Shown here one piece after another: positions 24,901 through 63,374 of a stretch of DNA of 64,000 nucleotides (position 1 is the first letter of the stretch; every line of letters begins with the position of its first letter). Under the pieces are notes generated by a model that was not told where the DNA came from, searched no databases, and worked only from the letters and a program-made list of their open reading frames with translations. Position numbers and translations under genes: made by a program. The DNA comes from Branchiostoma floridae (Eukaryota > Chordata > Leptocardii > Amphioxiformes > Branchiostomatidae). Location of the stretch: NCBI RefSeq assembly GCF_000003815.2, contig NC_049988.1, forward strand, positions 12,222,365 through 12,286,364, written 5' to 3'.

Positions 24901-27900
24901 CTCACTGCGATGAAGGTATTTGTTATTCAATCGTCACTTCATCTCTTTCGTTCCTTTTTCTTTGTATACTTTACTCTATTGTTTGTAAACGATTGTCCTC
25001 AGCATATCATGCATTTATTTCATTATGGAACATGATATCAAAGTTTTGTTCTTTCTTCTTCAGACATAGACGAATGCTCCCTTGACAGTAATAACTGTCA
25101 CGAGTGTCAGAACACTGAGGGTAGTTTTGAGTGCTCCTGTAGGGACGGGTACGTTGTGGACTCCGATGGAACATCATGTCAAGGTTCGTATAGTCAAATT
25201 TATAAAGTCCAGACTTAAACAGCACTCGGACGAAATGGAACGTATTGGTGAGTAGTTGATTTCTACGTTACTTTGTAGCGTTATCAGTTTAGATTATTTA
25301 TATTGCAATCCATACATAGTATGGGATTGCAATATATTGTTATATTGCAATCCATACATAGTATGGGATTGCAATATATTGTTTTTCCTTTCGTTCTCCT
25401 CCTGTCAAATCTTCAAATTGATTCAACTTTTTCATTTTTGGGCCAAATGAGCTGAAATATGGCAGGGTGGTAGAAGTAGCAAATACCCCCAGGCGTTTTT
25501 TTCACTTTCTTGATAGAGGCCTTAGAATTTATGATATTTAGGGTTTTTGGTCATTTTTAGACAAAATATGTATATTTTGGGCCCCTGTGCCCTGGTATTA
25601 CAAGCTAATGACCTGAAATTTGGTACAGATGTGCATTAAACATGTGAGCACAGAAAACCATCAACACTTTCTTCATAGATTGCTTAAAAAATGAGTTATT
25701 TTAGGGTTTTTGGCCATTTCTGACTAAAAATGTATATTTTTGGCTCCTATGCCCTTGTATTAAAACCAAATGACATGAAATTTGGTACATAGGTGCGTTT
25801 GACATATGACCACAGAACCCCATCAACGCTTTATTCATTGTTTACTCCAAAAATGAGTTATTTTAGGGTTTTGGGCCATTTTTTGACTAAAAATGTATAT
25901 TTTTGGCTCCTATACCCTTGTATGAAAACCAAATGACCTGAAATTTGGTACAGAGGTGCATTGAACATATGCTCACAGGACCCCATTGACACTTTCTTCA
26001 TAGATGACTTCAAAAATTAGTTATTTTGGGGTTTTCAGCCATTTTTGACTAGAAATGTATATTTTTGGCTTCTATGCCCTTGTATGTAAACCAAATCACC
26101 TAAAATTTGGTAGAAAGGTAAATTGGACATATGACAACAGGACCCCATCAACACTTTCTTCATAGAACACTCATAAAATGAGTTATTTTGGGATTTGTAG
26201 CCATTTTTATCTAAAAAATGTATATTTTTGGCTACTATGCCCTTATATTGAAACCAAATGACCTAAAATTCGGCATGAAGGTGTGTAGGACAAGTGCCCA
26301 CAGTACTTCATTTACCCATTGAGCAAACATTACTTCAAATTGTTGAATTTTGGGATTTTTTCAAGGATGAAGATGGATTGCAATATGCTGTATTTGCTCC
26401 TAAGCAAATGTCGGCCTTTCTAGTTATTTTCACTCCGCGTACCGTAGGTACGCTTCGAGTGAAAATATTGTTTTCATACGGTTTCTTCTTTCTTTCTTTC
26501 TTTCTTTCTCCTGTCGCGACCTTTAAAGTGATTCCTCTCCGTCGTTCCTGGACCAAATGGCCTGAAATTTGGCACAAGGGTACAGTTGGCCAATACCCAG
26601 ACCCGTTTTTCTCATTTTCTTGATAGATACCTTTACAATGATTTTAGGGATGTTTTAAGGTCGTTTTCTGGCCCGGCTGTATATTCATGTCTCCCGTGCC
26701 CAGGTATTACGTCCAGATGACTTGAAAGTTGGTATGATACTGCGTGAGATACTTATTAAAAGGACCCCGGTATTATTTTTGGCCAATCGTCACTTCAAAA
26801 TCATTTAAAAGCCAATTTGGCGGGGTATCTACGCATATTTTCACCGAGCTCGCGTTTCGCGCGTGTAACCATATATGGTCACGTTTGCACGTGCGTCCGT
26901 TGCACCATATATGGTTATGGACGTTTCCGCGCGTGACGTAAGCTGTTTACCTGCAGCTGTGCATTGTGGCTAATTGAATTTAGAAGGGAACCAATATGCG
27001 CCCGACACTTAGCGGAAGCGATGACCTGATTGGTCAGCTCGGGTACAGCCAATGAGGAAGGGTTTTTCAACTTAGCGGCTGGGAGTACATATATGTCGCC
27101 GGGAAGAAGTCCGTTAAAAGTAAGTGAAAAATTGTACTGTTTATCTTAAAATTGGCAACAATACACAAACGCAGTAACAAATTTGTGTAACTTGTCGTCG
27201 TTATTGTGTAGTTTTTGTTTGATTTACCCACGTTTAGAGTGTCTGGATAAGCGATACCGTAGCGTCAGAGTGCCGCGGTAAGTGGGAGCGCATGCATGGA
27301 ATATTGTTGCGCTTTGCAGTGACTGATGAGACAGTACTAGTATTGTATCATCAAGCTTTATTGACACGACAAAAAGTACAGTCAATTTTGTATGGCCAAC
27401 TTTAAACTGCAACGAAAAAAGAAAGAATACAGAGTATATCTTACAATTCTACTAATTAAACATTATGATATGATTCTACTAATTATCGGTGAAAAGTGTA
27501 CAGTAGTTCTCTTCCATAGTAACGTTATATGATAGTACAGATTTTCAAGGGCAAATCTACTAGTACAAACTTTACACTATGTTGTGAATTGTCCATTCAG
27601 GTTGGTTGTACAAGAATATATGTAATCAGGTGTGGCTTTTTTTCTAATCAACAAACAAAAAGGATCTTCCTTTTACTCTGGGTGGCAGTACATGAAATTA
27701 CACAAAGGAAATACTAATTATTGTATTCTATTCTATTTTCTACTGGAGGAAGAGGATACACCACCAGGACTGTTGTGCAGACAGGTGGGGTTGTGCCTTG
27801 ATAGAGGGTGTCAATTTGACAGTGCTAAATTCATTATTGGTCGGGTGCTCGAACTCAACTAATGCCACAAAGTCTGGCCTGTCAGAGAACACAATAGTCA

Positions 27901-33835: not shown

Positions 33836-34110
33836 CTACTGATACATCGGTGCGACGAAGTTGAGCTTGACCGGCTGACGATCGTCAAACGGCTTGTTGG
33901 CCTCCCCGCGCAGCTCCTGCAGATGGACGGGCTCTAATCCATTTCCGTCGTCACCAGCAACGATGTGCAGTTTCCTCTGGCTGTTGTTCTTACAGTAGCA
34001 CATCAGCACCACCACAGCGATGGTCACACCTACAGCACAGCCGATACACACGAGTGCCAGGTACAGCGGCTCCTTGTACCAGGGGGTAGTTATAGGTAGG
34101 TCATCTTTGG
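33836..34110 (-). CDS. Gene 2 exon 29: transmembrane helix and cytoplasmic tail
   Basis: The exon has [13 protein letters not shown] outside, a helix [20 protein letters not shown] plus LMCY, then CKNNSQRK as stop-transfer and a tail of about 50 residues. The tail has [14 protein letters not shown] where gene 1 has [11 protein letters not shown], so DDR is shared but PPxY is missing, and it ends FVAPMYQ. Stop TAG is at 33838-33836. Confidence 0.87.
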
Positions 34111-43100: not shown

Positions 43101-46100
43101 TTCTCTGATGGACACCGGAGCGTGGGTGATCCGTCCAAAGTTGATGAGCATGTGCTTGTCTCCGTCCCATTGGCCATCTTTTACGGCAACCAAGATGGCC
43201 TCCGCTTTCAGTCTATGTTCCGTATCCGACCACCTGTCGGCGTAAAACCTCACGTGACAACCTTCAGCTACGCAGACGTCGTCGTCGTTTGCGTCGAAAG
43301 CTAAGGGAACGTCTACGTAACACTGCCCCGCCCTTTGTGCCCCACCTCTACAGACGAACGGGACGGTACTGGTCAGCTCCAACTTGTAGTAGTCATCAGA
43401 CTCTTCAATAACGACAACGTCTTCTGCCTAAACACACACAAAGGATAATAAGAAATAGAGTTGGTTTGATTAGAAAAAAATAGTTCAGATGGATTGACCT
43501 ATGTTTTTTCAGACTTAATTCTGACTTTGAATGGTACCTTGAGAAGCACTACATAACGCAGCACAGTCCCTAAAGCAAATGGATAGATTTTGTAAACGAC
43601 CAGATATTTGAGGTCACAGTGACTGCATGTAACTTTCGTCAGTGACTGAGGTTCAAAAAATGTATCGAATTGTTAAGGCACTACGTTTCCAAACAATGTC
43701 GAAAACATTAGTTGCAAAATTACGACTATGAATGTCAATTTATGGTAATTTAGTAAAATACAGAAGCTGATGTTACCTCCATTCCTGCCCAGTAAGAGTT
43801 GCTTTGACGCCACTCACTTTTCACATCCGGGGTATCTTCCCAGTATGACCTCATTTGACAGGAAACCTTTGCGGGAAAAACATGTCATTGGTATGAAATA
43901 TTAAAGAGGGCTTTTTGAGCGCATAACATATGATCAGTAATCTAGAAGATAAAACTACATTGTTATATTTCAGCCATACCATAGGTATGGTGAAATATAT
44001 TGTATTCGTAATGTTTCTTCTTTCTTTCTTTCTCCTGTCAAATCTTCAGAACACGGTATCTCCGTTGTTCCTCAACCGAATGACTTGAAATTTGGCACAA
44101 GAGTAGAGTGGGCCAATACCCTCGGACCTTTTCTTTCATTTTTTCCATATCTGTCTCTTAAATGATTTTATTAAGGTTTTTTGGTCATCTTAAGACCAAA
44201 ACGGTATATTTTGGCCCCCTGTACCCTGGTCTTACAATGGAATGGCCTGAAATTTGGTGTAGATAGGCATTAGATAGTTGGTAAAATGATCCAAGTAAAA
44301 GATTTGACATAAACTACTTTAAAATGATTAATTTTGGCACTTTTCTGAGGGGAAATTTGTTTTCTTTTGGCCTCCTGACGTGACCTTCCGTGACCCCGCA
44401 CGGAGCCCACACCTGTGCGCGAAGAGGGCGAAGGCTAATTAATATTCATAAGCGGGGCCTCACGATTCCGTATATACTGCAGTGTTCCCGCCAGAATTTT
44501 TTACAGCGTCGGCGCCGGGGTCCACCGAAGAACGCCGAAGGCCCCGGCCCGGCAGGGTCCAGGGGCAGAGCCCCGTTGGGGGAAACTCTTGCACTTTGGG
44601 CTATTCAGAAGGCTTATTGTATCAGTTTTTAGGGGCATTTCTGTGATGCGATGGTATATTTTCCCTGCGCTGTTAGCTCCGTACGTTTTTAGAAGGTTCC
44701 GTTTATCACAGAACTGCTGTTGTTTCAGAAATCTCACGGACTTATGCTTACAAACACGTAAATTGCTAACTTTCAACCAGCGCTTTACTATATACAGTAA
44801 ATTTCAGCACTTTTCTGAGGGAAAATTGGTTTTCTTTCGGCCTTTTGCCGTGAGCAGAGCCCCGCACGTGCAAGTTAAATGAATTTAACGAGCCAGCCAA
44901 TCAGCGAAAAGGAAGACGAAGTCTAATTAATATTCAATAGCGGGGCCTTCCAACCCCGTTTATATAGAAACACGTGCATATCTTGACAACACAGCGGACG
45001 GATGTCACCTTACGCCCGGTTTTATATACATGTATATATAAACTAGAAAGGCCGACATTTGCTTGAGAGCAAATACAGCATATTTCAGCTATCTCCCTCC
45101 CCATGCAACAATAGACTATTTCAAAATCACCCATTTGAAAATCACTTTTACTGATGACGATTTAACCCAAAAATGAATCTTACAAAATCCCCCCGTTCAA
45201 GAATGGACTCAAGTGCACCCTATGTGAATTTGCACAATAGACCAGTCCAGAAATACTCACACTGAAACCTTGGCGTTTTGAATAAGAAACCAAATCCAAA
45301 ATTGAATTTAGCAAAACAGGTCCCAGTGCATGAAAAGGTATGATAGACCAGTCTAAAAACACTTCCACTAAAAATTGAATTTTGAATCATCACCCGTCCA
45401 AAAGTGAATTTGAAAAAATCCCCCTTCCGTGTGCAAAAATGGACTCTTCCATGTAAAGTAGAGCAGTCCAAAAATAAATCCGCTAAAATAGGACTTTGAC
45501 ATAATCACTGAAGTCCAAAAAAAGGGATTTTTAAAAAAGCCCCCCTCAATGCAAGAATGGACTCTTCCAGCACACCCATGTAAAATTGCAAATTAGACCA
45601 GTCCAAAAATAACCCTACTGAAAGACTTTGACAAACTAGAAGTCACCAAAGTCCAAAATATGACTTTTATAAAAATCCCCCCTCCGTGTGAGAATAGACT
45701 CTGCCAGCACACTTTCTGTAAAATTGCGAAATAGACCTGTCCAAAAATACATCCACTGAAAGACTTCACCAGTCCAATGATGAATTTAAAAAAAAAATGA
45801 ACCACTCCGTGTAAGAATGGACTCTTCCAGATAACACCGGGCTCGCTGATTGGCTGCCACCCCCCCTCTTTAGGATATAGATTCAGGCTAAGTGATTGGT
45901 TACCTATCTAATTAGATTAAATAGACATATATGCCAGTAGGTGCAATCTGCAGCTGGGGGTCAACGACCTTAAGGTCATTGACCCCTCTGGAAATTGGAA
46001 AATGACAAAAAAAATCCCCAAATATATCATTTTGACGTAGTCTATGACAAAAATTATACATGTGTCATTTGAATAAATATCTAGTGCACCCTTTTACCAA

Positions 46101-49100
46101 AATTTAGGTCATTTGGTTTTAAAACCAGAGCACAAGAGCCAAAAGTGTACTTTTTGCTCATAAAATGGCCAAATAATCGTAAAATTAAGCATTTTGTTGT
46201 ACTGTATGCCTCAAATGTTATTGAATCCATGTGCGCATATGTCTAGGGCACTCCTATACTAAATTTCAGGTCATCCGGTTCTAAAACCAAGGTACAGGAG
46301 CCAAAAGTGTCCTTTTTTGGTAAAAAAAAATGACCAAAAAATCGCAAAAATAAGCATTTCCTTATACTGTACACCAAAACTGATATTGAATCTATATGTG
46401 GGACTTATCAAGGCACATCTGTGCCAAATTTCAGCTCATTCGGTTATAATACCAGGGTACAGGGGGCCCAAATATACAGTTTTGGTCTTAAGATGACCAA
46501 AAAACCTTAATAAAATCATTTAAGAGACAGATATGGAAAAAATGAAAAAAACGTCCGAGGGTATTGGCCCACTCTACTCTTGTGCCAAATTTCAAGTCAT
46601 TCGGTTGAGGAACAACGAAGATACCGTGTTCTGAAGATTTGACAGGAGAAAGAAAGAAAGAAGAAACATTACGAATACTAGAGTTCAACGAACCCATCTC
46701 TTCGCCAAATAATCATGCCTTTATTCAAGACTTTAAGGTCTTATTCATGTATTACTAAATCATGCCTTTATTTAAGACTTTAAGGTCTTATTCATCTATT
46801 ACTAAATAGTACCTACCCCCAAACCCCACAAATGCTACCAAAACAAGACCTGATTGTACAAGATGACCTGATAGCACCCCTGGTCAATCAGAATTTCAAG
46901 CTTTTCAGTGTCCAGCTCACGGCTTGTCAGTGTTTCCTCCAGCAAAAACATCTGTCAAACAGATGTGTCCATAGATATAGGTCAAGTGAGATACATGTAT
47001 ATACAAAACAGTTTATTTCTGTTAATTGGCCACTGATTACAATTAAATGCATCTTTCCATGTAGATTATTATTTTAAGTACTCATTCTATCTACATACCA
47101 AAAAATCCTGATGATCCGTCAACACGTTCTCGAGTTATTCTCGTTCAAAGTTTGAAAGGAAATCGGTGCCTGCAGTTCCCAAAAAGCCGCTAGGGGGTCC
47201 AAACTCACAGCACTTACTCTCTGCCCCAAGGGCTATCTACCACTCAAAAATCATGACCACAGCATATCCAAAACACGAAGTGACAAAAATAAAAGTTTTG
47301 CTGCAGTACCTTAGGCAGTCACTAGGGGGCCCATTATCGAACTTGACCTTCGTTTTCTTGACCCCCACCCACCTACCAAATATCATCAGGATCCATTCAA
47401 GGGTTCTCGAGTTATCTTGCTTACAGACAAACGCACTTACATACAAATCCCGCTACAGCGCCGTAGGTAAGAGCCAGGTAAACCATTTTCGCACTTGACC
47501 TTCCTCTCCAAAACCGCTACACACCTACCAAGTTTCTTGAAAATCGCCCAGCTAGATTTTGACTTATGCTGCCCAAAACAAACTGCAAAAAACATACCAA
47601 GCTCGCTGCAGTACCGTAGGAAAACGCCAGGTAAACCGTTTTCGAACTTGGCATTCCTTTCGACAACCGCTACACACCTACCAAAAATCACAAAGTTCCA
47701 TCTACAATTTCTCGAGTTATATGCTGTTGACCTACATACAGACCCAAGTCGACAAAAACATACTCTATCGCCATTGGCGAAGAGAACTAGAGTTCCTCGA
47801 ACACACATCTTCGCCAAATAAACATTCTTTATCGAAGGTCGTTGTTTTTGAATGATTAATGTATGTAATTATGGCTATAATGGGCCGGATAAGCACCAAA
47901 TACAGCTTAATACGAGATGTTAATATAGCAAAGCTGGATGTAAGGTCTTTAGTTAGGCTAGGTTAGGCTAGGTCTTTAGTTTTATATAAGATTTCACTCT
48001 ACAAAATGTACATTGCAGTCTTTTCGTAAAAAAAGAAATAATAAACAAACTTTGAGTGACTGGCCTATATATTAGATAATAGGTCATCTAAGGGTTACCT
48101 AAGGGTCATACGTAAGGATTGTTACGGCCCCGCCTTGGTGAATGTTTGTGTCCATCTCATGAAAATAGTAAGTAAAGTTTTGCAATCGCGAGTTAAGTCA
48201 GAGGTATTTTACACAGTCTACCTGGCCTGGCTATCACGTCAGGCTACTCAGATCCCCCCATTCATAGCCCCGCAAAGACAAAATAGCTGATTGACATGAC
48301 AGGCATAGTAATTGCTAATCTCCAAGTATTAGTATATTCATAAGCCTTACTTAGATCCTCCTCTACAACCTAGCACAAACCGAGACAAGATACGATACCA
48401 CCCGCGTTCTATGACCGCACTCGTACAACCCGGAAGTATATGATATTGTCGTAATCGGTTGCACGGAAACCCCCATGCAGTGTGAAATCGAGGCCAAAAT
48501 CAGGCAAAAAGAGCCAGTTTGAAGGCCAACTTTGACTCTTCAAATCTCATCCCGAAATAGTATTTGAATCATTAAGCGTGCTGTATGCGATCGAACAACT
48601 CATGAGGATTACGTTGGCACCTTTGACAGCCTGATTTGGCCCACCGCGATGTTTTAATCTTTTTTTACGTGACCATGTCTTATGCCTCAAACGGGCGGGC
48701 GTGTAACACCCTGCCATGGCATGACGATTAGTTCTGCTCCACCTTTGATTTGTCTGTGCTAAGACCCGGAGACTGAGGGCAGGGGGTTAATTTGGTGTGA
48801 CTGGCCCTTGTCAGGGAAAGGAGATCAGGCTTCTGCTTCTGTCTGAAGGGCTTGAATGATAAATGAAGATTAATGGTCCACACATTAGTGCTGGACTAGG
48901 GTGACAATGGTGCCAGTGTCATGTTGCACTGCACACCACTTTTGTAAGGGATGTGGTTCTCTCCATGATAAGAATCCCAAAGTAATTATATTAAGTAGAT
49001 CGCAATTGACATAATTAGCATCTCATTATGTTGATAATCACCCTAAGTACCTACCTACCAAAAGCAAAGAATATCCATCAATCCCCTCTGCAGTTATCCT

Positions 49101-52100
49101 TTTTAAAAGTTACAAACTATAAGACCCACTGCAGTTCCAAACAAGCTGCTAGGGGGCCCAAAATTACACCATTCACTCCTAGTCCCAACAGCTATCCACC
49201 ACTTAAAAATCATGAACATGGCACTTCTGGAAAATTTAGGCGCAAGCTTTGACGCTCACTTGCAGTACCAAAACAAGTCGCTAGGAGGCCCATTATCGAA
49301 CTTGACCTTCCTTTCTGTGTCCCCTACCTATCAACAAAATATCATTAGCATCCATGTAGAACATCTCGAGTTATCGTGTTAACAGACAAACGCACTTACA
49401 TACAAAGCCAGCTACAGCACCATAGGTAAAAGCTAGCTAACCCATTCTCGCACATGACAATCCTTTACACAACCGCTACACACCTGCCAAATATCGTAGA
49501 AATCGCCCAGCTGCATTTTGAGTTATGCTTCTCGAAACAAACCTCGAAAAAATACAAAGGTCGCTGCTGTACCGTAGGAAAACGCCAGGTAAACCATTTT
49601 CAAACTAGGCATGCCTTTCGACAACCGCTACACACCTACAAAAAATCAAAAAGTTCCATCCACAATTTCTCGACTTATAAGCTGTTGACCTACATACAGA
49701 CCCAAGTAAGCAATCTTATAATCTTCGCTGGCGAAGATAACAATATATTTCACCATACCTATGGTATGGCTGAAATATAAATAGTTTTTTGCGAGGATTT
49801 GGAGTTAACGACAAGGTCATTTGGACGGTAGCAGAAGGTACGCGTTCCTTGAACGTCAGAGTACATGTCTTTGTCGATGAATTTGCCAACATTCCGCGTA
49901 GCAAGATCAATCATTTTCGGCAGATTTGACTTTGGCAGGGTAAGTTGAGACAATCGAGGAAATGTTACTTGGCGGAAATCGCGGGAAAATTGGCCAGTTT
50001 AGATTTGATAAGTAAGTTTAACAATGGTGAGAATGATTATTTCCTCATCAATATTTATCGTTAGAATGTTTTGAACTGTAAATCTAAACAATTGTGTTAC
50101 CTGTGCAATCTTTATATGAATAAACATACATTTTGCCAGCACGATGTTGCAGCAACATGATAACTTCATGTCTGTATCATGCCACTTTTATTGTTGAAGG
50201 CGCGTAAGCAAATGAACAAGCATGACAAAAGAAATATTATGATACTATTTATTCGGTAACATTCACTTTTATTCACGATTCTAATTTGCAATGCCTGCAA
50301 ACTCCGATCGGAATCACCCGGACCTTGTACGATTTAAAATGCATTTAACGTGAAATTGGAATTTATGACGAATCCGACACGTTAGTTCAAGGAGCTTTTA
50401 TCAGATAAAAGCTCCTTGGTTAGTTCAGATTCTTTTCTCAGTAGTCACGCTTCCTATTTTCATAGTTTAAAAACTATCGACAAAGGCAGCGTTAAAGAAT
50501 GTTTTTCTCCTGGTGCAAACTGTAAACACACGTCACCCACCACTCGTCTCCGATGTGACGAAGCCATTCGCGCCATTTTTATTGGATTTTAGACGGACTC
50601 GACAGTCGAGCCGTCCACCGCGGCCTTGGCATCGTTTCCTCGCGATCGGTGTCAGCCCTGACTGCACCGCTGCCCCTTGTCGTTGTCCCTCAACAGTTGT
50701 AGTAGAAGCAATAGTTTCCGCGTCGTCCACTTCTTGACAGGTCGACGCCTTAGCGAGATACTTGTGTATGTTATCCAGTCCCAAACATCGCAGTTTCTCG
50801 GTTTATTTTCGCAAAGTTTCGTGCCTCTTCTTGATTGACGTTATGTTACCGCCTTTGTTGGAGCCGCTGCTGGCTGTGATTGGTCGCAAGTTAATTCGAT
50901 TTTTCGCATAAAGTGGCACGCCCTGTCTAATCGGTATATCTAAAGACTGCAGCCAAGGCTGTTGTCATGGTAACGACACGTATAACAACGTTGTAGCGGT
51001 GTTTAACAGAGATAGAGTCAAAGGCGCGGCAGGAAAATATTACTGAGTGAATACTGAGCGAATTTTCAGCATGTGGAACGCCGAAGCCTCCAACTTTTTT
51101 TTTGCCTTGCCGGGCGCCGAACTCGGGCGCGAGGCGTCTCAAGCTTGTTGAGGCCTGGGAAATTTTGAAATCTTGACCCTCCGAAACGCCATTTCTGGCA
51201 TTTTGACGAACAAATTTCACTGATAGTCCGAGCAAAANNNNNNNNNNNNNNNNNNNNNNNNNNNNNNNNNNNNNNNNNNNNNNNNNNNNNNNNNNNNNNN
51301 NNNNNNNNNNNNNNNNNNNNNNNNNNNNNNNNNNNNNCAAAAAAAATTTTTCCTGGGGCCTCTCCCCCCCCCTCTAAAAATTTTTTTTTCTTAGGGCCCT
51401 CCCCCCGGGGTTCCATTTTTTTTTCCTAGGGCCCATACCCCCCCCCCCCCCCGACGGACCGCCCCCCCGCTAAATATCGACCAGTCCCTTAGTGCCCAGT
51501 TACTCAGTGTAAAATTAGCGTAGCGGATCCGCTGCTAGTATAAACTTCGACCCCTATATGTTGTTTTTGGTAAGTATTTGGCGACACATCTCGGCTTCCG
51601 GGTATCGCTCCGAGGACGCAAACAGTGAAGCGCCCCGGGCAGCTTGACCGATAATGTCATCGCTACGGGCTTTCGAAATTCATTAGGACATTGTGAGATT
51701 TTAGGTCCTACAATTTTCTTGCAAATCAGATATGTTAGACCAGATGGTACATTTTTACTTCCTGTATACTGTATAGGTGTAGTTCCCGGGGAAAATTTTG
51801 TTTGGAAATACGGTGTCGTTGAAAATAGTCTCTTAACTATACGTTTCAATGGGGGCGAGAAACTGGGGTGTGCCCCTAAATGTTCCATTTTCGAGCAGGG
51901 GTTATTTGAGACAGTTAAATGTTGTATGGGAAAAGCTATGGCTGAAATATGCTGTATTTGCTCCTAAGCAAATGTCGGCCTTTCTAGTATTACTTAATAT
52001 CTTGGTAACCAACTTACAGCTTTCCCCATCTTGGACGGCCAGGTGACAGGCAAGTTCGGATACAGCTGGTTCAGACCCAGGTGACTAGCGTCCATCTTTG

Positions 52101-55100: not shown

Positions 55101-58100
55101 AATCAAGCAGACGACAGAAGGGCATGGAGACAACTCTCCATCTTCATGGCTACCTTATCCCCCCCCCCCCAATGACCTGGAGGTCAATGGACTAGGTAGG
55201 TAGGTAGGTAATCAAGCTGTTTACAACCAGGGCCCCACTAGCTGATGACTTAAGTCTAGTACGAAGCGGTAGCCCTGGGAACTTAATCAGCAATGCATTT
55301 TACTATATGAACGGTGTATGATACTTACCGTCACATGGGCCATTTTCGTTAATGGGAAGCCCTCGTAACACAAAACACGGGAACCCCCCATTTGTAAATG
55401 TACAGGGAAAGGGCCCATTCCCGTCACATCCCTCTGTATTGGTTAATGACAAAATAATTCTACACATATAGCATGCATGCATACCTTTTTAGTTAAAGAT
55501 GTCGTCATAAACAAAATAACTTACTATAATTACATCCTTATTTGCTTAAGTAATCAATTAGGCAAGATGAAACAATTAATCTAGAAAGTCTCAAAACATC
55601 TCATGGGGGTATGAGGTCTCCTGTGTTGTTACAGGAGACTACTTGGAAAAGGCATAAAATGTACAAATTGAAACAAGTATGGTGTTAAAAAAACACAGGC
55701 GAAGAAAGGTTACGATGGAATAATTGTTTGTTTGTTTGTTTGTTTGTTTGTTTGCTTTATTATGATCTCCAGTAGTGATATTGTACAACTATTCTGCCTG
55801 GAGCCTGTGAATATTCACATAAAATAAAATAGAATTAAACAAAGTAACAAAATTTATACAAGAATAAGTAACAAAAAGTATGGTTCCTTAAAAAAACGAG
55901 ACGAATTTTAATTGTCATTCAAAGTTTAAGATGAGTGTAAGAATAGTTTCAAACATTTATTTGCACGATTTCAATGTGTTCCCCGTTTTCTGCTGTGTGT
56001 AAGGATGGTTCGCTGTCGTTGTAATGGCTGGGTATAGGTGTGATGCCTTTTCGTTCTAATTCATTTTTTGTTACCTGTGTTGAAAAAAAAGCAGGTATTG
56101 TTTTTGGTAGGGATCACGATATGTAGTTTTCGGACCGATATCTTTAGAACCTCTGGATGGATTACGATCACGTTTGCTATTGGGGTAGATACTGTGAGCC
56201 ATTGTGCTTTAGCGCGCATTAGAACTTTGCTGCTGTTTTGTGGTTCGTTTAAAAAAATATTTACACCCCTTTTCTTGATATGGAATGATCTGGTCGTCTT
56301 AACGGGGACAGCTGTGACATATGTTTTATGTTTACAGTAGCATGGGAGTGTGTGGGGAGTTTCCGGGACTATATCTCCAGAACAGAACACGTAATTGTAA
56401 TGATATTTATCTCCATGAATAATGAAGATATAGTTTTGGGTGTGTCGACGATGTCTGTGTGTTTGTCTGTCTATATTTATCTCCATGAATAATGGAGATA
56501 TAGTTTTGGGTGTGTCTGTGTGTTTGTCTGTGTGACCAGATTTTTGTAGTGAGCATAACTCAAGAACTTCTGGATGGATTACGATGATTTGGTTTGTGGG
56601 TAGGTGTTGGGAAGACAAAGGTCAAGGTCAATTTTGGGCTCCCTGGTATGTGACCTTGGTACTGCAGCAGAAATTCGTTTTTTGGATCTTGTGAATGTGC
56701 TATAGCTTGTGACATAAGAGATATGTGATGTATATTTCCCCCCCTCCCCTACGCAGGTTGCTCTGGAACTGCAGGGGCATTATTTTGAAAATGTTCTAAG
56801 GAGGATAACTGAAGAAGGGAACAACAACTTTACATGATATTTGGTGTGTAGGTAGCTTAGACAGAGATCATGAAGTGCAGATTATGCAAGTTGACACTTA
56901 ATTTGGATGTTTAATGAGGAAAATCTGTATTTGCAGTGTTTCTTTTATAGAACTCAAATACCTGTAAATATGTAGTTTGTGGCAGGTGGAACATTAGCAG
57001 ATATCAATTATGCAAATAAGTCCATAATCTTCATAATTAATGTAAAAGTGTCATAATTCATCTATGTGGTAAATGATTGTACAACCAACATAGTGACTAG
57101 CGTAGGTTATTTACAGGTCTACATAACTAAGCATAGATTATGCAAATGTGGAATCCATTTACATAATCAGACTATCTCATAGAGATATGATGTTCCCGAA
57201 CTCTTGTTGATCATCATCATCATCATACATGTGTTGGGTGTGGTTGCCTCAGGATTGATTTGGAGCTTCCTTGTGTTTGAACTTGACACTGCAGGTAGCC
57301 TTTTGTGTGTTGAAGGGGCGTACCTGTTTAAACACTGTCCTCCGATCAGGTCAGGATTCAGTTGTACAGGCGGTGGTGCGAGTGAAACGTTTTCTCAGAT
57401 GTTCCTATGAACTCCGAGTTCTAAGCTTGATAGTGGGTACCTGTTTAAACACTGCCCCCCAAGCTAGGGGTTTCTGTTGTGCAGGTGGTGCGAGTGTTAT
57501 GTTAATACATATGTCCCCAACATCACAGTATATTGGAATAGGCAGTAATTCCCCCTCCAAATGTCGATTGACAATGGTGACCCTAAGTAGCTCATATACT
57601 GTCACGGCACAGACAGTCCACATCAGAGACAAGGGGTGTCTATGACAGCACCAAAAAGTTGATAATATGGATACATGAGAAAAAAGAGTTCGGAGACCTC
57701 ATACCTCCATGAAATGACTTGCATATCTGCATAATTCATGTATGGTTCTATACACATTTAACTAATTAGCACAGGTCGCAATGCTTACAATCAAGTGTCC
57801 TAGACATATAATTACAAAACTTTAAAATCAACTCTAAACAGTGACAACAAACATCCACACGGAATCGACTCTATGTACATCTCTGCCAAAGATACCTGCA
57901 TGCTGAATAGCATGGAAATCTGTCCTTCCTATGTTCCGTTTTGCTCTTTGGAAGATTTTGGCCAGAATGCCCCTGCAGTTCCAGAGCAAGCCGCTAGGGG
58001 GCCCAAACATGCAGTACTTCTGCCTTACATCACAAGCAATCTGCCACACAAAAATCAAGACCATAGCATGTACAGCTCAAAAGATAAAAAAAAAAAATCG

Positions 58101-61100
58101 AAATTTAGCTGCAGTACCAAGGTCACACACCAGGGGGCCCAAAATCGACCCTGACCTTCGTTTTACAACACCTGCCCGCATACGAAATATCATAACGATC
58201 CATCCAGAGGTTCTAGAGTTATGGTGACCACAAATATCCGGAAACACAATCAAACAGACAGACAGACAGACGGACACATCAAAATGAATACCTCCATTTT
58301 TCATAGTCTGTGTAAAGCAAACTCCGCTGTCCAGGGCTGTAACTGGCCCCTCCCCGGGGGCCGGCTGATGTTTGGCGGGCTGCTATAAGCGAGATTTAAT
58401 CAGGCTACATTTTTCATGTAGGAAAAAAGTTCTAAGTAAGAGTAGTTAGTTAAAACAAGGAGGTTAAAAGCAGAACGTCTCAAAATACCTCTGGCACAGA
58501 AGGCGTACTCGTCTTGCTGTCCATTGCCATCGACGCACCAGTGTCCCGACTCTGCACCACAGGAGGCACCATTACGCCAGTTGTTCATGAACTGGTACAC
58601 GTCGTACAGCTGCGGACAGCTGCGTGGATCAGCACCACACAGCTGCTGGGATACTTCCTCCATGGGGTACCAACAGTTCACCAAGCCTGTTTGGAAGCAC
58701 GACGAGGAGGACAACCCACAGGCGCTGTCCCCGGGACACGGCGTCACGTACCCCGCTGCCTCACACGTTGCCTTCACGTTGGCCGAAGTCATACCTCCGG
58801 TTACAGGTACCTTGTAGTAGTGCCAGTCCTTGTAAGCTGTCAGATATGAGGCATCTCGTCCTGTAAACAGATAAAGAAAAAAATGTCAACCAAAAACTCT
58901 TTAAAAAATCACTTTGGACTCCCCCCACCCCCTCTTAGTCAAAAAGCACAAGCGTCGATTGAATGCATCCATCATATGTTGTTTCAATCTGAATATGAAC
59001 TAGAAAGGCCGACATTTGCTTAAGAGCAAATACAGCATATTTCAGCCATACCCCTTCCCACGCAACATTGGACTGTTCCAAATCACCCCTGCGCAAAAAT
59101 GGAACATCATATTAACAGTACATTATCCCCCAAAGTGGACTGGTATTGTGAATTGATTCCAGGTAAAAACAGAGCTTGCTTCTATTTTTGCAGAAAATGA
59201 CAATAATCACACCTTCCATTCAGAAAATTTTCATCATGACTGAAAATTGTTGAATGACTTCATGTAATGTCATTAACAATTTTCAGTACGATAACTAGGT
59301 GTAAGTTTAAAAAAGTATAAGCTCCTTGTGATGTGGGTACATTTATTATTGCAGTGAACTTTTTTTATTCAAGTAGGGCATACGATTTAATAATTATCAA
59401 GCAGGTGCAGGTACTGTAGGAGCGTTTGTTTTCTTCAAGCTGTAAAACTGTTAAACTGTTTTACTTTGTATGCAATCAGCCATCGAGCCTATTCTTATTT
59501 TAGTTTAACAACTTCCTGCCAGACCCGGAAGATACGATTGAACCTTGTTCGAGGATTTATTTTCGTCTGTCTGGTCAGTCTGTTCATACCCTGGCGCTGA
59601 GAGTGTTTTATTGGGCTGAAACTCTGGCAGTTTAAAGTTAGTTACAATTTAAATGTTCAAAGTTTATGTCAAACAACAACAGCACTAGGAAATGTGGCCA
59701 CTATAGACAGGTGGTCACTATAGAGAAAATGCTGATCTATTGACTAGGAGCCATACGTTACACATNNNNNNNNNNNNNNNNNNNNNNNNNNNNNNNNNNN
59801 NNNNNNNNNNNNNNNNNNNNNNNNNNNNNNNNNNNNNNNNNNNNNNNNNNNNNNNNNNNNNNNNNTCATATAAACATTGCACAGGTAAGCCAATTGTTTA
59901 GATGTACAATTAAGTTCAAATAATTCTGAAGAGAAATATTGATGAGAAAATAATCATTCTCGCCACTGTCTAACTTATAATTACGTATCAAAACTAAACG
60001 CAGATTTTCTAACTAACGCACCTTTCGCCGACTTCATCAAAGGACCGCCGGCTATCAATCAAACACGGCTGTTGATTAGACTTAGAGTTTCAAACAGTCA
60101 TGTGCTGTGTGCCAGTTGACAGCGAACTTCATGCTACGTGATGTTTTACATTGCTTGGACCTTCTTTCCTACAGCGGTGCTTTTACAAAATATTTAGACT
60201 GTAACACTGAGTCCCACATGTTTTATAGAATAGAATTTGACGCAGAACAGCGTTTTTGCTGGGTATTTTTCTTGAAAAATGTCCGTGGGAATATCAGCGA
60301 GGCGGCGACGTAGGGATATCAGACCGTCAACAAAAGTCGCACGGCGGCTAACGGCGCAGCGAAGATACTAGCGCTATAAATAAGCGCTTCAACTAAGGAT
60401 GGCAACCCGTACAATATTTTTGTATACTGTTGAGCTAAGTAAAGTTTGTTGTTTATGAGGTTTTAGTTGTCTTTGAAGCTTTGACCCGAAATATTCTAAA
60501 GTCAAACTGCTGAAGAGAAGTAAGTGACTGCTACGATTATCGTAGATATGGCCCTAAAAAAAACTGATAAAAGAAGCCTTCTCAATAGTCTAAAATGCAA
60601 GAGCTTCCGGGGGGGCTTCGCCCACCTGGGTCCCCCCCCACAGTGGCCCTGCCCCTGGACCCCGCCAGGGACATTCGGCGGCCCCCAGACCCCTGTCCGA
60701 CGCTTTGAAAAAATCCTGGCGAGAAGTCTGTACGGCCTGAGTCTTCAAGTTAACGTATTGTGTGGTCCCGCTTATGAATATTAATTAGCCTTCGCTTTCC
60801 TCTTCGCTGATTGGCTGAACCATTAATTGAATTAACTCTTCCTGCCGGCTAGACGCAGGTGCAGATGTCGGCTCTGTGGGGTGAACGTCCGAAAGGTCAT
60901 GGCATGGAGAACGAAAGAAAACCAATTTCCCCTAAAAAAAGTGCTGTAATTAAGCCTTTTACAGTACTTTATGCCAAAAATTTTACTTGGATCATTTTAC
61001 CAACTATCTTATGCCTATCTATACCAAATGTTACTCATACCAGGGTACAGGGGTGCAAAATATACCGTTATAAGACCGTCAACAACAGTCGCACGGAGCT

Positions 61101-63374
61101 AACAGCGCAGCGAAAATACCATCGCTAGCGTTTCAACTTCGGATAACAAGTTATAAGTACTGTTGAACTCAGTAACGTTAAAGTTTGTTTTTAGTTGCCT
61201 TTGACGGTTTGACCTGAAATAGTGTTACGCTAAACTCCTGAAGAGAAGTTAAGTGACTGCTGCGATTATCATAGATATGCCCCTAAGAACTGATACAATA
61301 TAAAGCCTTCATGAATAGTCTAAAATGCGAGAGCCTTAGGCGGGCTTCGCTCCCACTGGCGGGAACACTGCTATATACGGGATCATGAGGCCCCGCTTAT
61401 GAATATTAATTAGCCTTTGGCCTCCTCTTCGCTGATTGGCTAGGTCTTTGATTCAATTAACTCTCCGGCTGACGCGCACAGGTGTGGCTCTGTGCGGGGT
61501 CACGGAAGGTCACGTCAGGAGGCCAAAAGAAAACAAATTTCCCCTCAGAAAAGTGCCCAAATTAATCATTTTAAAGTTGTTTATGTCAAAAATTTTACTT
61601 GAATCTTGTTACCAAGTATCTAATGCCTATCTATACCAAATTTCAGGTCATTTAATTGTAATACCAGGGTACAGGAGCCAAAAGTGTCATTTTTTGGTCA
61701 AAAATTGGCCAAAAATCGCAAAAATAAGCATTTTGTTGCACTGTACACCAAAAGTGTTATTGAATTTATATGAAGGGATTATCAAGGCACATCTGTGTCA
61801 AATTTCAGCTCATTCGGTTGCAATACCAAGGTACAGGAGCCAAAAGTGTCCTTTTTTGGTCAAAAATTGGTCAAAAAATCGCAAAAATAAGCAGTTTGTT
61901 GTACTGTACACCAAAAGTGTTATCGAATTTATATGGGGGCATTATTAAGGCACATCTGTGTCAAATTTCAGCTCATTCGGTTGCAATACCAAGGTACAGG
62001 AGCCAAAAGTGTCCTTTTTTGGTCAAAAATTGGTCAAAAAATCGCAAAAATAAGCAGTTTGTTGTACTGTACACCAAAAGTGTTATCGAATTTATATGGG
62101 GGCATTATTAAGGCACATCTCTGTCAAATTTCAGCTCATTTGATTGTAATACCAGGGTACAGGGGCCAAAATATACAGTTTTGGTCTAAAATTGACCAAA
62201 AAATCTCAATAAAATCATTTTAGAGGCAGATATGAAAAAAAACTGAGAAAACATCATCAAGGTATTGGCCCATTCTACCCCTGTGCCAAATTTCAGGTCA
62301 TTCGGTCCAGGAACGGCGGAGATGAATCACTTTGAAGATTTGACAGGAGAAAGAAAGAAAGAAGAAAGAAACATTACGAATACAATATATTTCACCATAC
62401 TATGTATGGCTGAAATATAATTACGAATACAATATATTTCACCATACTATGTATGGCTGAAATATAAATATGTACAATGAATCTACAGTACTCAAAAATC
62501 GTATTCTATTACATGAATTCGACTTCTTCTCGTTTCTTTGTGATATTGAAAATATAGAAACAGATATGCTTTGTAAGTAAAGGTTTGTCTAACTTCATAA
62601 GGAATTTAAATTTGTCTATATTACTTAGTAGTATGAAGTGGGGGAACATATCAATCTATAGAGTTCAGCTCTCTCCTTCTTGTACAAACTACATTCTACT
62701 ACAAAATGATGTTCGTCTTCTAACTTACGTAGATTGCAGTATCTACATATTCGTTGTTCTAGAGGAGTGTGGTTATGTCCTCCGGTTTCAATGTGTAGTT
62801 TGTGGCAACTGATTCGTAGTTTTGTGACGGCCGTCCTGTGCCGAATATTGTCAATATCCATGTATTGTTCTGCATTATAGGTGGTTTTGAACAGTCTGTA
62901 AGACCTCAATTTGTTTTTAGCGGATCAGGCTTGACTGTATATGTAAAGTTTCGGCAAAATGTATGAGTTGTCAACTTGAGGTCGCCATCACTACCTTTGA
63001 TATGTCTTAAATAAAAATAAGAGCATATTCCCTTACGAAACATAAGAGACTGTCGATGCTATGGTTATGATCTTACACAGAGCTGTCTTGGGAACTATTT
63101 TGAAGTGACTGCTGTTTGTATTTCCGGGCGATGTCTGTCCGCACGTTAAGTAGAGAACGAATGGATAGATTGTTTTGATACTGTGTGATATATGTGGATA
63201 GGTCCATATAACACAATGAAGTGGTTTTGATTTTCTCCCCATAACACCATGAAGAATGTCTAAATAGTAAATAAACTCACCTCCAACGGTTGCCGCGAAA
63301 CATAATGCAATCAAGCAGATTGCTGGGACACCCAAACGTATCATGCCGAAGAACACCCCATATGGTGAGACCAT
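33836..63374 (-). CDS. Gene 2: VWDE-like membrane protein (Cys-rich module, D8C, VWD, EGFs, SEA, TM), 29 exons
   Basis: Gene 2 is a complete paralog of gene 1 on the other strand. Exons (high to low): 63281-63374, 58489-58860, 55329-55433, 54846-54968, 53425-53634, 53007-53168, 52736-52795, 52018-52298, 43777-43866, 43059-43427, 42610-42689, 42317-42398, 41955-42155, 41468-41679, 40802-41273, 40315-40689, 39943-40200, 39708-39822, 38974-39585, 38643-38759, 38306-38428, 37867-37980, 37564-37683, 37098-37211, 36880-36918, 36568-36702, 36143-36270, 35662-35887, 33836-34110. They sum to 5,664 nt, exactly 1,888 codons with stop. It encodes a signal peptide, Cys-rich module, two EGF-type exons, D8C, VWD, cadherin/Ig-like plus three EGFs, six EGF-type exons, SEA, one membrane helix and a tail. 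Its long introns hold Helitron-like elements. Function is unknown; a cell-surface or shed matrix role is inference. Confidence 0.87.
34600..35605. mobile_element. DNA element with inverted ends, 30-bp palindrome and iterons
   Basis: Ends are related as inverted repeats (CTCGTTCTCATTAAAATGTC, then GAAAATG, read outward near 34640-34670, and GCTCGTTCTCATTTAAATGT near 35530-35555). Inside, 34801-34830 is a perfect 30-bp palindrome made of GTAACAAACGTTACC and its complement. The half site GGTAACGTTTGTTACA recurs at about 34979 and 35160. CTGGCGACAG-like motifs are also repeated. It lies in the gene 2 intron before the membrane exon. Confidence 0.5.
35662..36270 (-). CDS. Gene 2 exons 27-28: SEA domain with self-cleavage motif
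   Basis: Exons 36143-36270 and 35662-35887 encode a SEA domain: [19 protein letters not shown], then [14 protein letters not shown] with G-S-V-I-V (35801-35815), then [17 protein letters not shown]. Lengths and phases equal gene 1. The motif fits self-cleaving SEA domains. Confidence 0.87.
36568..38759 (-). CDS. Gene 2 exons 20-26: six EGF-type exons and a Pro/Thr-rich micro-exon
   Basis: EGF-type exons are 38643-38759, 38306-38428, 37867-37980, 37564-37683, 37098-37211 and 36568-36702. A 39-nt exon 36880-36918 (phase 1-1, good AG and GT) encodes [13 protein letters not shown], a likely O-glycosylated spacer. The first four EGFs match gene 1 types (DIDEC...[50 protein letters not shown]). 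Exon 37098-37211 ([16 protein letters not shown]) and exon 36568-36702 ([18 protein letters not shown]) have no clear gene 1 partner. For 37098 the donor after TGC T was chosen because it has the better GTAAGT and keeps six cysteines. Confidence 0.82.
38974..39585 (-). CDS. Gene 2 exon 19: cadherin/Ig-like module plus three EGF domains
   Basis: This single 612-nt phase 1-1 exon starts [18 protein letters not shown], includes [20 protein letters not shown] and [15 protein letters not shown], and then has three EGF-type repeats ([45 protein letters not shown]). It is clearly homologous to gene 1 exon 21. Confidence 0.88.
39708..41273 (-). CDS. Gene 2 exons 15-18: post-VWD region with furin-like RRRKR site
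   Basis: Exons are 40802-41273, 40315-40689, 39943-40200 and 39708-39822. Exon 15 carries [12 protein letters not shown] (basic run at 41060-41074, about residues 881-885), then acidic [10 protein letters not shown] and [18 protein letters not shown] before D fits the R-x-[KR]-R furin rule. Exon 16 holds an EGF ([18 protein letters not shown]). Exons 17-18 hold the Cys-rich segments [14 protein letters not shown] and [12 protein letters not shown]. Cleavage here would split the D8C/VWD part from the EGF/SEA part unless disulfides hold them together; this is inference. Confidence 0.87.
41468..42689 (-). CDS. Gene 2 exons 11-14: VWD domain
   Basis: Exons are 42610-42689, 42317-42398, 41955-42155 and 41468-41679. 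Marks include [43 protein letters not shown] and MPDGT. Phases equal those of gene 1. The donor after 41955 follows an R codon (ATC AGG|GTAAGG). Confidence 0.9.
43059..52795 (-). CDS. Gene 2 exons 7-10: linker before VWD, split by an 8.2-kb intron
   Basis: Exons 52736-52795, 52018-52298, 43777-43866 and 43059-43427 match gene 1 exons 9-12 in length and phase. Segments include [58 protein letters not shown] and [16 protein letters not shown]. The intron between 52018 and 43866 is 8.15 kb, against 255 nt in gene 1; nearly all of the excess is nested Helitron-like DNA and includes an assembly gap. Confidence 0.87.
45180..45840 (-). repeat. Degenerate tandem repeat of about 117-131 bp
   Basis: The motif AATGGACTCTTCCAG or variants recurs at about 45194, 45438, 45555, 45685 and 45816, with AGTCCAAAAATA in between. 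It is inside alpha-D. Confidence 0.65.
46678..47786 (-). mobile_element. Helitron-like element beta-E1
   Basis: The minus-strand 5' hairpin is CTCTTCGCC-AAT-GGCGATAGAG (47763-47784). The 3' end is GGCGAAGAGATGG, a small GTTC-GTT-GAAC hairpin, then CTAG-T (plus coordinates 46678-46681). The tag GGCGAAGAG appears at both ends. Confidence 0.5.
47787..49740 (-). mobile_element. Helitron-like element beta-E2
   Basis: The 5' hairpin is ATCTTCGC-CA-GCGAAGAT (about 49721-49738). The 3' end is GGCGAAGATGTGT, GTTC-GAG-GAAC hairpin, CTAG-T (plus 47787-47790). Tag GCGAAGAT is at both ends and differs from E1's tag by one base. Segment 49090-49730 is related to most of E1, so E1 may be an internally deleted form. 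Confidence 0.5.
51238..51337. other. Assembly gap (100 N)
   Basis: Exactly 100 N, the usual placeholder for a gap of unknown size. The bases just after it (51338-51480) are homopolymer-rich and probably poor-quality. Confidence 0.98.
53007..53634 (-). CDS. Gene 2 exons 5-6: D8C domain
   Basis: Exons 53425-53634 and 53007-53168 encode a compact D8C domain: [75 protein letters not shown] and FCEAYCAG. The cysteine pattern matches gene 1 without its Tyr-rich insertion, so this is likely the ancestral length. Confidence 0.9.
53690..54580. mobile_element. Element with about 140-bp inverted terminal repeats
   Basis: The left arm (GAATGAGTTGAAATTTGGCA, CAAAGGTA, TCTGAGATTGAAAT, CAGGTTTTTAT, CAAGATGACCA) is mirrored by the right arm at about 54435-54570 (TGGTCATCTTGAAATCAACT, ATAAAAACCTGAACG, ATTTCAATCTCAGAGGGA, TTTGTGCCAAATCTCAACTC). 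The spacer carries no coding frame. It lies in the gene 2 intron between exons 4 and 5. Confidence 0.65.
54846..55433 (-). CDS. Gene 2 exons 3-4: divergent EGF and normal EGF
   Basis: Exon 54846-54968 is a normal 123-nt EGF ([20 protein letters not shown] start, CDG end). Exon 55329-55433 is 105 nt, the same as gene 1 exon 4512-4616, and aligns with it through [10 protein letters not shown] (gene 1: [10 protein letters not shown]) and INENGPCDG (gene 1: NEDGTSCDG). It keeps only four of six EGF cysteines. Its donor GTAAGT is excellent and the frame is open, so it is called as coding, with lower certainty that it is spliced in. Confidence 0.7.
55192..55210 (+). repeat. (TAGG)n microsatellite
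   Basis: Short TAGG tetranucleotide run in a gene 2 intron. Confidence 0.85.
55725..55790 (-). repeat. (CAAA)n tract, possible LINE 3' tail
   Basis: On the minus strand, GATCATAATAAAGCAAACAA is followed by a CAAA run, a polyadenylation-like hexamer with a simple tail, as seen at 3' ends of some non-LTR elements. Confidence 0.45.
56401..57206 (+). mobile_element. Helitron-like element beta-H with doubled 5' end
   Basis: The 5' hairpin TTTATCTCCATGAATAATGG, then AGATATA, occurs twice (about 56403 and 56472), each followed by GTTTTGGGTGTGTC. The 3' end reads AGAGATATGATGTTCCCGAA then CTCTTG-T. The tag AGATAT is at both ends. The tip CTTG departs from the Helitron CTRR rule, so this copy is less certain. 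Confidence 0.45.
57683..58307 (-). mobile_element. Helitron-like element beta-J
   Basis: The minus-strand 5' part is AATGGAGGTATTCATTTTGA, then CAGACAGA repeats. The 3' part is ATGGAGGTATGAGGTCTCCG, then AACTCT. Tag TGGAGGTAT occurs at both ends. The body shares CCGCTAGGGGGCCCAAAC with E1/E2. The first hairpin arm and a clean CTRR are missing. Confidence 0.4.
58489..58860 (-). CDS. Gene 2 exon 2: ten-cysteine N-terminal module
   Basis: This single 372-nt phase 1-1 exon encodes 124 residues with ten cysteines. It starts [20 protein letters not shown] and includes [43 protein letters not shown] and [18 protein letters not shown] believe I have seen similar WHYYKV...CEAAG modules in predicted lancelet EGF proteins, but I cannot name the family. 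It replaces the four-exon module found at this point in gene 1. A whole domain in one symmetric phase 1-1 exon is the classic unit for exon shuffling. Confidence 0.8.
59766..59865. other. Assembly gap (100 N)
   Basis: Exactly 100 N within element alpha-F in gene 2 intron 1; true size unknown. Confidence 0.98.
61590..62160. repeat. 163-bp tandem repeat inside alpha-F
   Basis: GTACACCAAAAGTGTTAT recurs at 61743, 61906 and 62069 (steps of 163). Each unit has AAATTTCAGCTCATT and GTACAGGAGCCAAAAGTGTC. The 170- and 113-codon open frames across it share the repeat unit and are not considered genes. Confidence 0.85.
62480..62945 (-). mobile_element. LINE 3'-region fragment (C-terminal RT polyprotein)
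   Basis: The minus strand reads [48 protein letters not shown], the Cys-His-containing C-terminal pattern (R.C..C....EDE.HF...C..Y) of many Jockey/CR1-like polyproteins. The 5' end is truncated and a frame change follows SPTSYY. It abuts alpha-F in gene 2 intron 1. Confidence 0.7.
63281..63374 (-). CDS. Gene 2 exon 1: start codon and signal peptide
   Basis: ATG at 63374-63372 opens [15 protein letters not shown], followed by a hydrophobic core [17 protein letters not shown], a good secretion signal. The exon ends in phase 1 before a GTGAGT donor. The frame upstream continues as TTG ACA GCA without another ATG nearby, so this start is preferred. Cleavage is probably near the AATVGG end. Confidence 0.85.

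Follow-up and report, generated by a model that had tools for sequence, protein, structure and literature searches.

The cluster of repeats analysed here, in the Branchiostoma floridae genome (contig NC_049988.1, positions 12,222,365 to 12,286,364; this whole stretch of 64,000 nt is referred to as the window), raises the question of why a repeat should carry, in the hairpin at its 5' end, a short tag that recurs in inverted form near its own 3' end, and why repeats with the same 3' terminus should carry different tags. We consider the repeats, with a probability of roughly 0.85, to be non-autonomous rolling-circle transposons of the Helitron2 type (Helentron/HINE-like), the tag being their asymmetric terminal inverted repeat (ATIR); that the ends are of the Helitron2 type is nearly certain. 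What is demonstrated here is the anatomy, a strict match between the two ends, and the concerted change of tag bases beside a constant adjacent tail. The original prediction held that no rule had been described for a 5' hairpin carrying a tag that matches itself, which is wrong: Helitron2 is defined by such ends, and both the tag rule and a mechanism for tag matching were published in 2013 (PMC3627910), so that our finding confirms rather than reveals. Its reading of the repeats as Helitron-like, with ends that pair, was reasonable, end pairing being a published proposal (PMC3627910).

Results

Nine elements and their nesting

A shared plan of 5' hairpin, body, 3' tag, small 3' inverted repeat, and CTAG-T had been proposed for about ten elements. 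The plan is confirmed, and the tag pairs are present in the sequence within ~10 nt of where they had been placed, but the elements number nine: once the nesting is resolved, nine 3' ends have nine 5' ends. Because E1, E2, and others are nested, some of the coordinates proposed earlier need rereading; the hairpin at 25298, taken as the 5' end of E1, belongs to E3, and E1's own is the second copy at 25340. Nor does every element end in CTAG, since E7 ends in CTTG. The elements are as follows.

E3, 25298..30041, forward strand: host element, made up of a hairpin (25298-25339) and a body (28999-30041), with E1 and E2 inserted; 3' end with tag GGATTGCAATAT at 29993-30004, 3' hairpin, and CTAG.
E1, 25340..26423, forward strand: nested in E3; 5' hairpin at 25340-25378; central repeats of ~162 bp; 3' end with tag GGATTGCAATAT at 26375-26386, 3' hairpin, and CTAG.
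E2, 26424..28998, forward strand: flush behind E1 and nested in E3; 5' TTATTTTCACTCCGC hairpin; 3' end with tag GGAGTGAAAATA at 28950-28961 and CTAG.
E4, 43963..51987, forward strand: contains E5; 5' hairpin at 43963-43999; 3' tag TGGCTGAAATAT at 51939-51950; CTAG.
E5, 45043..49780, reverse strand: lies in E4; 5' hairpin at 49780-49741, the element resuming at 46677, with B and C inserted at ATATTG^T; 3' end with tag TAGCTGAAATAT at 45091-45080 and CTAG at 45043.
B, 47787..49740, reverse strand: 5' TTATCTTCGCC hairpin; 3' tag GGCGAAGAT at 47815-47807; GTTC..GAAC; CTAG.
C, 46678..47786, reverse strand: flush behind B; 5' TTCTCTTCGCC hairpin, whose right arm has one extra base; 3' end with tag GGCGAAGAG at 46706-46698, inverted repeat GTTC..GAAC, and CTAG.
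E7, 56407..57206, forward strand: weakest member; two 5' hairpins (about 56407 and 56477); 3' end with weak tag AGAGATAT at 57181-57188, inverted repeat GTTC..GAAC, and CTTG.
E6, 59000..62467, reverse strand: two 5' hairpins (62467 and 62420); 3' tag TGGCTGAAATAT at 59048-59037; CTAG at 59000.

When the two pieces of E3 (25298-25339 and 28999-30041) are joined, they run collinear with E1 without a break where they meet, 1012 of the 1081 aligned positions being identical. A simple tandem duplication of the 5' hairpin at 25298-25381 was rejected, as its first copy joins collinearly to a body that is left without a 5' end. In E5, B and C stand head to tail directly after ATATATTG of the E5 hairpin, a place that corresponds to that of E1 and E2 in E3. 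E4, within which E5 lies in the opposite orientation, provides the unoccupied site for B and C (43963-44003 aligned with 49780-49740, and 44002-44257 with 46678-46424), and this empty site sets the outer boundaries of the B-C stack. Runs of N at 51238 (in E4) and from 59766 (in E6) leave the bodies of these two elements not fully known.

E6 (62373-62467) and E7 (56403-56531) each have two 5' hairpins but only one 3' end. Several 5' ends have been read as remnants of nested insertions in Fusarium elements (PMC5148889), and by analogy the doubled hairpins of E6 and E7 could be such remnants carried along in transposition, or duplications.

EGF domains are encoded by reading frames in the surroundings, where a uromodulin-type match below threshold also occurs. 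An EGF-domain gene is present as an inverted duplication (10926-18000 and 38600-52307 of the window, in pieces of ~72 to 91% identity), and in one copy, E4 with its nested elements separates two pieces that match the other. That other copy was searched for the empty site of E4, but its intron is too diverged. A reading frame of 474 amino acids at 9122-10546 on the reverse strand has a reverse transcriptase domain (RVT_1; E value, 5.5e-32) and is probably a retrotransposon fragment.

Two tails and a T-rich target

In tail I (E1 to E6), a short spacer separates ATTTGCT...AAGCAAAT from GGCCTTTCTAG; in tail II (B, C, and E7), GTTC...GAAC is followed by TCTAG or TCTTG, the tag ending 18 to 20 nt from the terminus and the 4-bp inverted repeat GTTC..GAAC coming after it. 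Across the genome (513 Mb in 431 contigs), one tail type has 2,680 matches at up to two mismatches. The base after CTAG is T in all 57 distinct tail-I tips (57 of 61 being distinct), and the second base is T in 46 of the 57. Collinear host pieces in E3, in E5, and at two loci designated L025 and L028 display no target duplication beyond an ambiguous T, which, together with the T-rich or TT target, is as in Helentrons and HINEs.

Affiliation of the ends

Helitron2 elements are defined by ATIRs, the 5' copy lying in a terminal hairpin and the 3' copy directly before the 3' hairpin (PMC3627910); in work on Helentrons and HINEs, the same anatomy goes under the names subTIR and IR (PMC4067079, PMC7492417). 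All nine window elements have ATIRs in the Helitron2 range of 8 to 15 bp (10 to 15 aligned bases, that of E7 near the chance level), and in all nine the 5' ATIR begins 0 to 2 bp from the 5' end (after TT or T) within a predicted hairpin. After the 3' ATIR, a hairpin is predicted in each of the six tail-I elements, in which 37 nt separate the ATIR from the terminus, somewhat more than the 20 to 30 bp of the definition.

In Helentron/HINE terms, E1 to E6 have a 5' subTIR with IR and a 3' subTIR with palindrome. The same end plan is less certain in B, C, and E7, whose 3' inverted repeat is only 4 bp long and whose GTTC..GAAC hairpin is absent from the lowest-energy fold predicted for the last 38 nt. 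TTTC runs lie behind the hairpin in E2, E4, E5, and E6, and central repeats of ~162 to 165 bp are present in E1, E3, E5, and E6, with neither feature in B, C, or E7; microsatellites and central tandem repeats are often but not always present in HINEs (PMC4067079, PMC7492417).

Canonical Helitron1 identity was rejected, the 5' TC of that type being absent and a 5' hairpin, which it lacks, being present: all nine elements begin with TT followed by a hairpin. Their CTRR-type 3' end (CTAG in eight of nine and CTTG in E7) is not exclusive to Helitron1. Pfam returned no Rep or helicase match for six reading frames (five inside elements and one just beyond E7), and the copies therefore appear to be non-autonomous. 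Rfam gave no matches at gathering scores, and viral and prokaryote contigs contained none of the exact tail patterns. The repeats thus add members to Helitron2/HINE-type families.

Each 5' tag matches the 3' tag of its own element

As a cognate score, we took the ungapped agreement between the 5' left arm and the reverse complement of the 3' tag. It is 14/14 in each of E1, E2, E3, and E4, 15/15 in E6, and 12/13 in E5; with tail II, it is 10/10 in B, 12/12 in C, and 10/11 in E7. The match is clear in eight of the nine elements and, taken alone, weak in E7. When all nine pairings are permuted exactly, the mean score is 60.9 (standard deviation, 10.4), compared with 112 observed, and 12 of 362,880 permutations reach the observed value, the number expected because E1 and E3, as well as E4, E5, and E6, share tags. 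With one element per tag (E1, E2, E6, B, C, and E7), 1 of 720 permutations does so; restricted to tail I (six elements), the figure is 12 of 720. For every element but E7, between 1 and 12 of 2,222 random 75-nt stretches drawn from the window, real ends included, score as high as the cognate pair; for E7, 31 of 2,222 do so, which makes this match weak by itself.

A de novo scan that was blind to the elements, looking for a hairpin, a distant inverted copy, and CT[AT]GT, returned 10 matches in the window, compared with a mean of 0.2 and at most 2 in 30 dinucleotide shuffles. Nine of the 10 are end combinations of six elements, with doubled hairpins counted twice, and the remaining one lies inside the central repeats of E3 (29306/29702); the scan of the window recovered none of B, C, and E7. 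In none of E1 to E6 does the 5' left arm agree better with its own hairpin partner than with the 3' tag, on ungapped scores that cannot bridge bulges; the corresponding arm scores of B, C, and E7 are not usable, because part of the arm lies outside the stretch searched.

Tag changes recur at the far end

Between E1 and E4, 4 of 12 tag positions differ, all four also at the 5' end, and none of the 37 positions of the adjoining spacer and tail does. Between E1 and E2, 5 of 12 tag positions differ, each of them at the 5' as well as the 3' end, and so do 4 of the 37 next door; for this comparison, the reading of the E2 5' arm is shifted one base toward the terminus relative to the other elements. 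The original prediction of a single-base difference between E1 and E2 fits the pair here called B and C, whose tags are ATCTTCGCC and CTCTTCGCC at the 5' end and GGCGAAGAT and GGCGAAGAG at the 3' end. E5 has a change at one tag position at its 3' end only. Compensatory mutations were reported by Bao and Jurka in 2013 between two related Helitron2 elements of Culex (PMC3627910).

The E2 family carries a one-base tag variant that can be followed across the genome. Patterns for its 5' and 3' ends, which admit both variants and fix the other tag bases, each match 112 places; among the 100 listed of 112 in each case, the 3' ends comprise 80 with G and 20 with A and the 5' ends 82 with C and 18 with T. 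Pairing by coordinates, with 5' partners taken from the 100 listed of 112, joins 78 of the 100 listed 3' ends to a 5' end, yielding 61 C/G pairs, 17 T/A pairs, and no mixed pair; the other 22 have no listed 5' partner within 13 kb. Among the matches listed, 62 pairs fall within 3.5 kb, again with none mixed. For A-type tips, the 5' end lies within the 3 kb examined in three of eight cases, and in all three, which are among the 17 T/A pairs, both hairpin arms are changed. Among the matches listed, the T/A copies are mostly 1773-1931 and 3264-3522 nt long, compared with a mode near 2526 nt, and since these elements have lengths of their own, the pairs represent a few independent events seen many times, the change being mostly inherited.

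In a second pairing, ends were located without reference to the tag and joined by nesting order, producing 36 pairs, of which 34 are distinct and free of overlaps. The two ends belong to the same tag family in 33 of the 34 and are identical at 12 of 12 positions in 30. One agreeing pair, the outer hairpin of E6 with the tip of E5, is false and agrees because both carry the same tag; without it, the count is 32 of 33. The discordant pair (L025, 3366/9720) probably arises from a surplus 5' end within a nested array. No 5' end was present in the DNA examined for 25 of the 61 tips. Three tag families cover most of the tail-I tags listed, as collected with a pattern that could not show the GCTGAAATAT type, and single-place variants such as GGATTGAAATAT occur among the 3' tags (3' ends only).

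Whether the tags associate better than subfamily descent would have them do, the question on which the original prediction was to stand or fall, receives only a partial answer: coupling in the E2 family is perfect in the 78 listed pairs but inherited, and the contrast between E1 and E4, with its four two-end changes beside an unchanged tail, is hard to obtain from descent alone.

Self-insertion at the foot of the host hairpin

Insertion of one element into another recurs at exactly the same site, the foot of the host's 5' hairpin (ATATTG^T; target pattern ATATTG^TATTCGTAATG), at 25339/25340 and 49741/49740 in the window, at 2568 in L025, and at 980 in L028. Among 60 distinct tips (57 with tail I plus B, C, and E7), 17 have their 3' flank in or flush against another such element: six are flush on a 5' end and nine lie within the first ~60 nt of a host and in the host's direction, the other two being E5 in E4 and a tip at L028 4026 in an E1-type body. 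These tips come from few loci, several of them from the same arrays, and so are not independent; the host hairpin upstream of the guests was verified in E3, E5, L025, and L028 only. L028 has three stacked guests, and its collinear host pieces are identical to E1 at 1015 of 1082 positions. The host pieces of L025 are identical to E6 at 3207 of 3319 positions; hosts of E4 type (47.8%) or E5 type (60.2%) were rejected, as only E6 fits.

Genome-wide, a 3' tip is joined to the sequence that follows a GCTGAAATAT-type hairpin at 69 exact junctions, a raw count. In a further set of 75 flush junctions, the tip is followed by the 5' end of an element with one of two tag types, the downstream type being ATTGCAAT in 69 and GCTGAAATAT in 6, although GCTGAAATAT is the commoner type among the tips examined. 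Several flush junctions ~1 to 3 kb apart form arrays, e.g., at G000:C11:12911343-12919641 and G000:C172:145076-151768. Terminator read-through was rejected as the source of flush arrays: B and C in E5, and E2 beside E1, are of different families, and read-through would also leave the unoccupied site of E4 unexplained.

Discussion

What keeps the tags matched

Bao and Jurka (2013) proposed that pairing between the 5' and 3' ATIRs melts the 5' hairpin and sets the end point of replication (PMC3627910), and we lean slightly toward this model for the window repeats. The 5' copy of the tag lies 1 to 2 nt inside the 5' end and the 3' copy just upstream of the 3' hairpin. On a displaced single strand, the 5' tag would first pair locally, forming a hairpin with adjacent sequence; the 3' tag, once exposed, would pair with the 5' tag and open that hairpin, and the resulting duplex would mark the end of strand transfer or the closure of a circle. 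Because complementarity, not a fixed sequence, would have to be kept, tags could diverge between families that share a 3' hairpin and tail, provided that the two ends of each agree. On predicted energies, which ignore the cost of bringing the two ends together, the switch is feasible for all tail-I elements but one (duplex, -15.2 to -18.1; hairpin, -9.5 to -14.0); in E5, the predicted duplex (-11.0) is not more stable than the hairpin (-11.3), and the duplex values of B, C, and E7 are meaningless because the 3' slice missed their tags.

A family-specific protein, or the copying of one end from the other, is a possible source of matching as well. Inverted repeats at both ends are the usual protein sites of cut-and-paste transposons, and were a transposase domain to bind the tag at both ends, a single protein reading both would explain the match, each tag family conceivably having its own transposase. 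The same 3' hairpin and terminus nonetheless accompany different tags, so that each switch would call for a new specificity, and in three of three elements the change of tag extends to the local hairpin arm, which makes such a protein an unlikely cause. A change of tag without a change of tail, alike at both ends, fits selected complementarity better than it fits a fixed protein site.

Descent of each subfamily from one founder that already had matching ends, both being conserved to the same degree and nothing maintaining complementarity, would account for the largely clonal E2-family result, in which lengths differ by tag type, and for the concentration of most listed tail-I tags in three families (the pattern being blind to the GCTGAAATAT type). 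It does not easily yield a pair of elements with an identical 37-nt spacer and tail in which 4 of 12 tag bases differ and each change recurs at the far end, and over the more than 1 kb that separates the ends, unconstrained drift would break the match; we judge it improbable. Equally improbable is that the ends are copied from each other by template switching or conversion on a circle, the coupling being a by-product of replication: the one-base change present in all three tag copies of three of three elements and the joined ends, suggestive of a circle, reported for Fusarium Helitron2 (PMC5148889) speak for it, yet the 3'-only change in E5 and the unrepaired hairpin arm of C mean that copies are not always homogenized, and end copying itself presupposes that the ends come together.

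A possible landing site

The repeated self-insertion at the hairpin foot is the least explained part of these results. Earlier work has described self-insertion, stacking in tandem, and elements that have more than one 5' end (PMC5148889, PMC4067079, PMC3288121); among the papers listed on self-insertion, the titles and opening lines of abstracts contain no hairpin-foot site that we recognized, and the exact recurrent site may be new. We suggest, tentatively, that an extruded hairpin or the adjoining single strand might act as a structural landing site, guests entering at the hairpin foot or flush at a 3' end. If so, each 5' end would be a magnet for further copies, and elements with unrelated tags would stack head to tail; coupled with tags that vary freely yet match within each element, such a site would imply that Helitron2 ends depend on the structure and self-complementarity of the DNA and not on fixed protein sites.

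The value of the locus lies in its material. With 2,680 tail matches, tags that differ on the same tail, and a family in which a one-base variant occurs at both ends, the 2013 pairing model becomes directly testable in a single host. How composite elements may arise can be seen from the stacked arrays and the doubled hairpins. The clean genome-wide coupling of the E2 family in the pairs listed and the self-insertion site are the points of note.

Comparison with known systems

Helitron1 elements have in common with the window repeats a 3' hairpin, a CTRR end, and a T after the insertion, but are described as lacking the 5' hairpin and ATIR, both of which the window repeats have, without a 5' TC (PMC3627910, PMC5148889). 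The Fusarium FoHeli elements, which are Helitron2, resemble the window repeats in their ATIRs, hairpins, and self-insertion, and several 5' termini occurring with one 3' terminus are there attributed to nested insertion; the recurrent exact site at the foot of the host 5' hairpin is a feature of the window repeats of which we found no mention in the available portions of the FoHeli report (PMC5148889).

Helentrons and HINE/DINE-1 elements are described as having a subTIR with a local IR, or a palindromic subTIR, as well as a 3' subTIR, a 3' palindrome, and a T-rich target, as in E1 to E6 and, less surely, in B, C, and E7, and share a microsatellite and central tandem repeats with several of the window elements (PMC4067079, PMC7492417). 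Identical subTIRs, 11 bp or longer, set the limits of their families (PMC4067079), and in oyster HINEs, the subTIR and the complementary IR change from element to element (PMC7492417). Helentrons have an autonomous partner encoding Rep/Hel/endonuclease, whereas none was seen in the six window frames given to Pfam. Helitron2 as described from algae, Culex, and other hosts has the 5' ATIR hairpin, the 3' ATIR before a 3' hairpin, and the T at the 5' end that characterize the window repeats, along with compensatory changes between relatives and a proposed pairing of the 5' and 3' ends; the window repeats add a different host and a 3' end of CTAG (PMC3627910).
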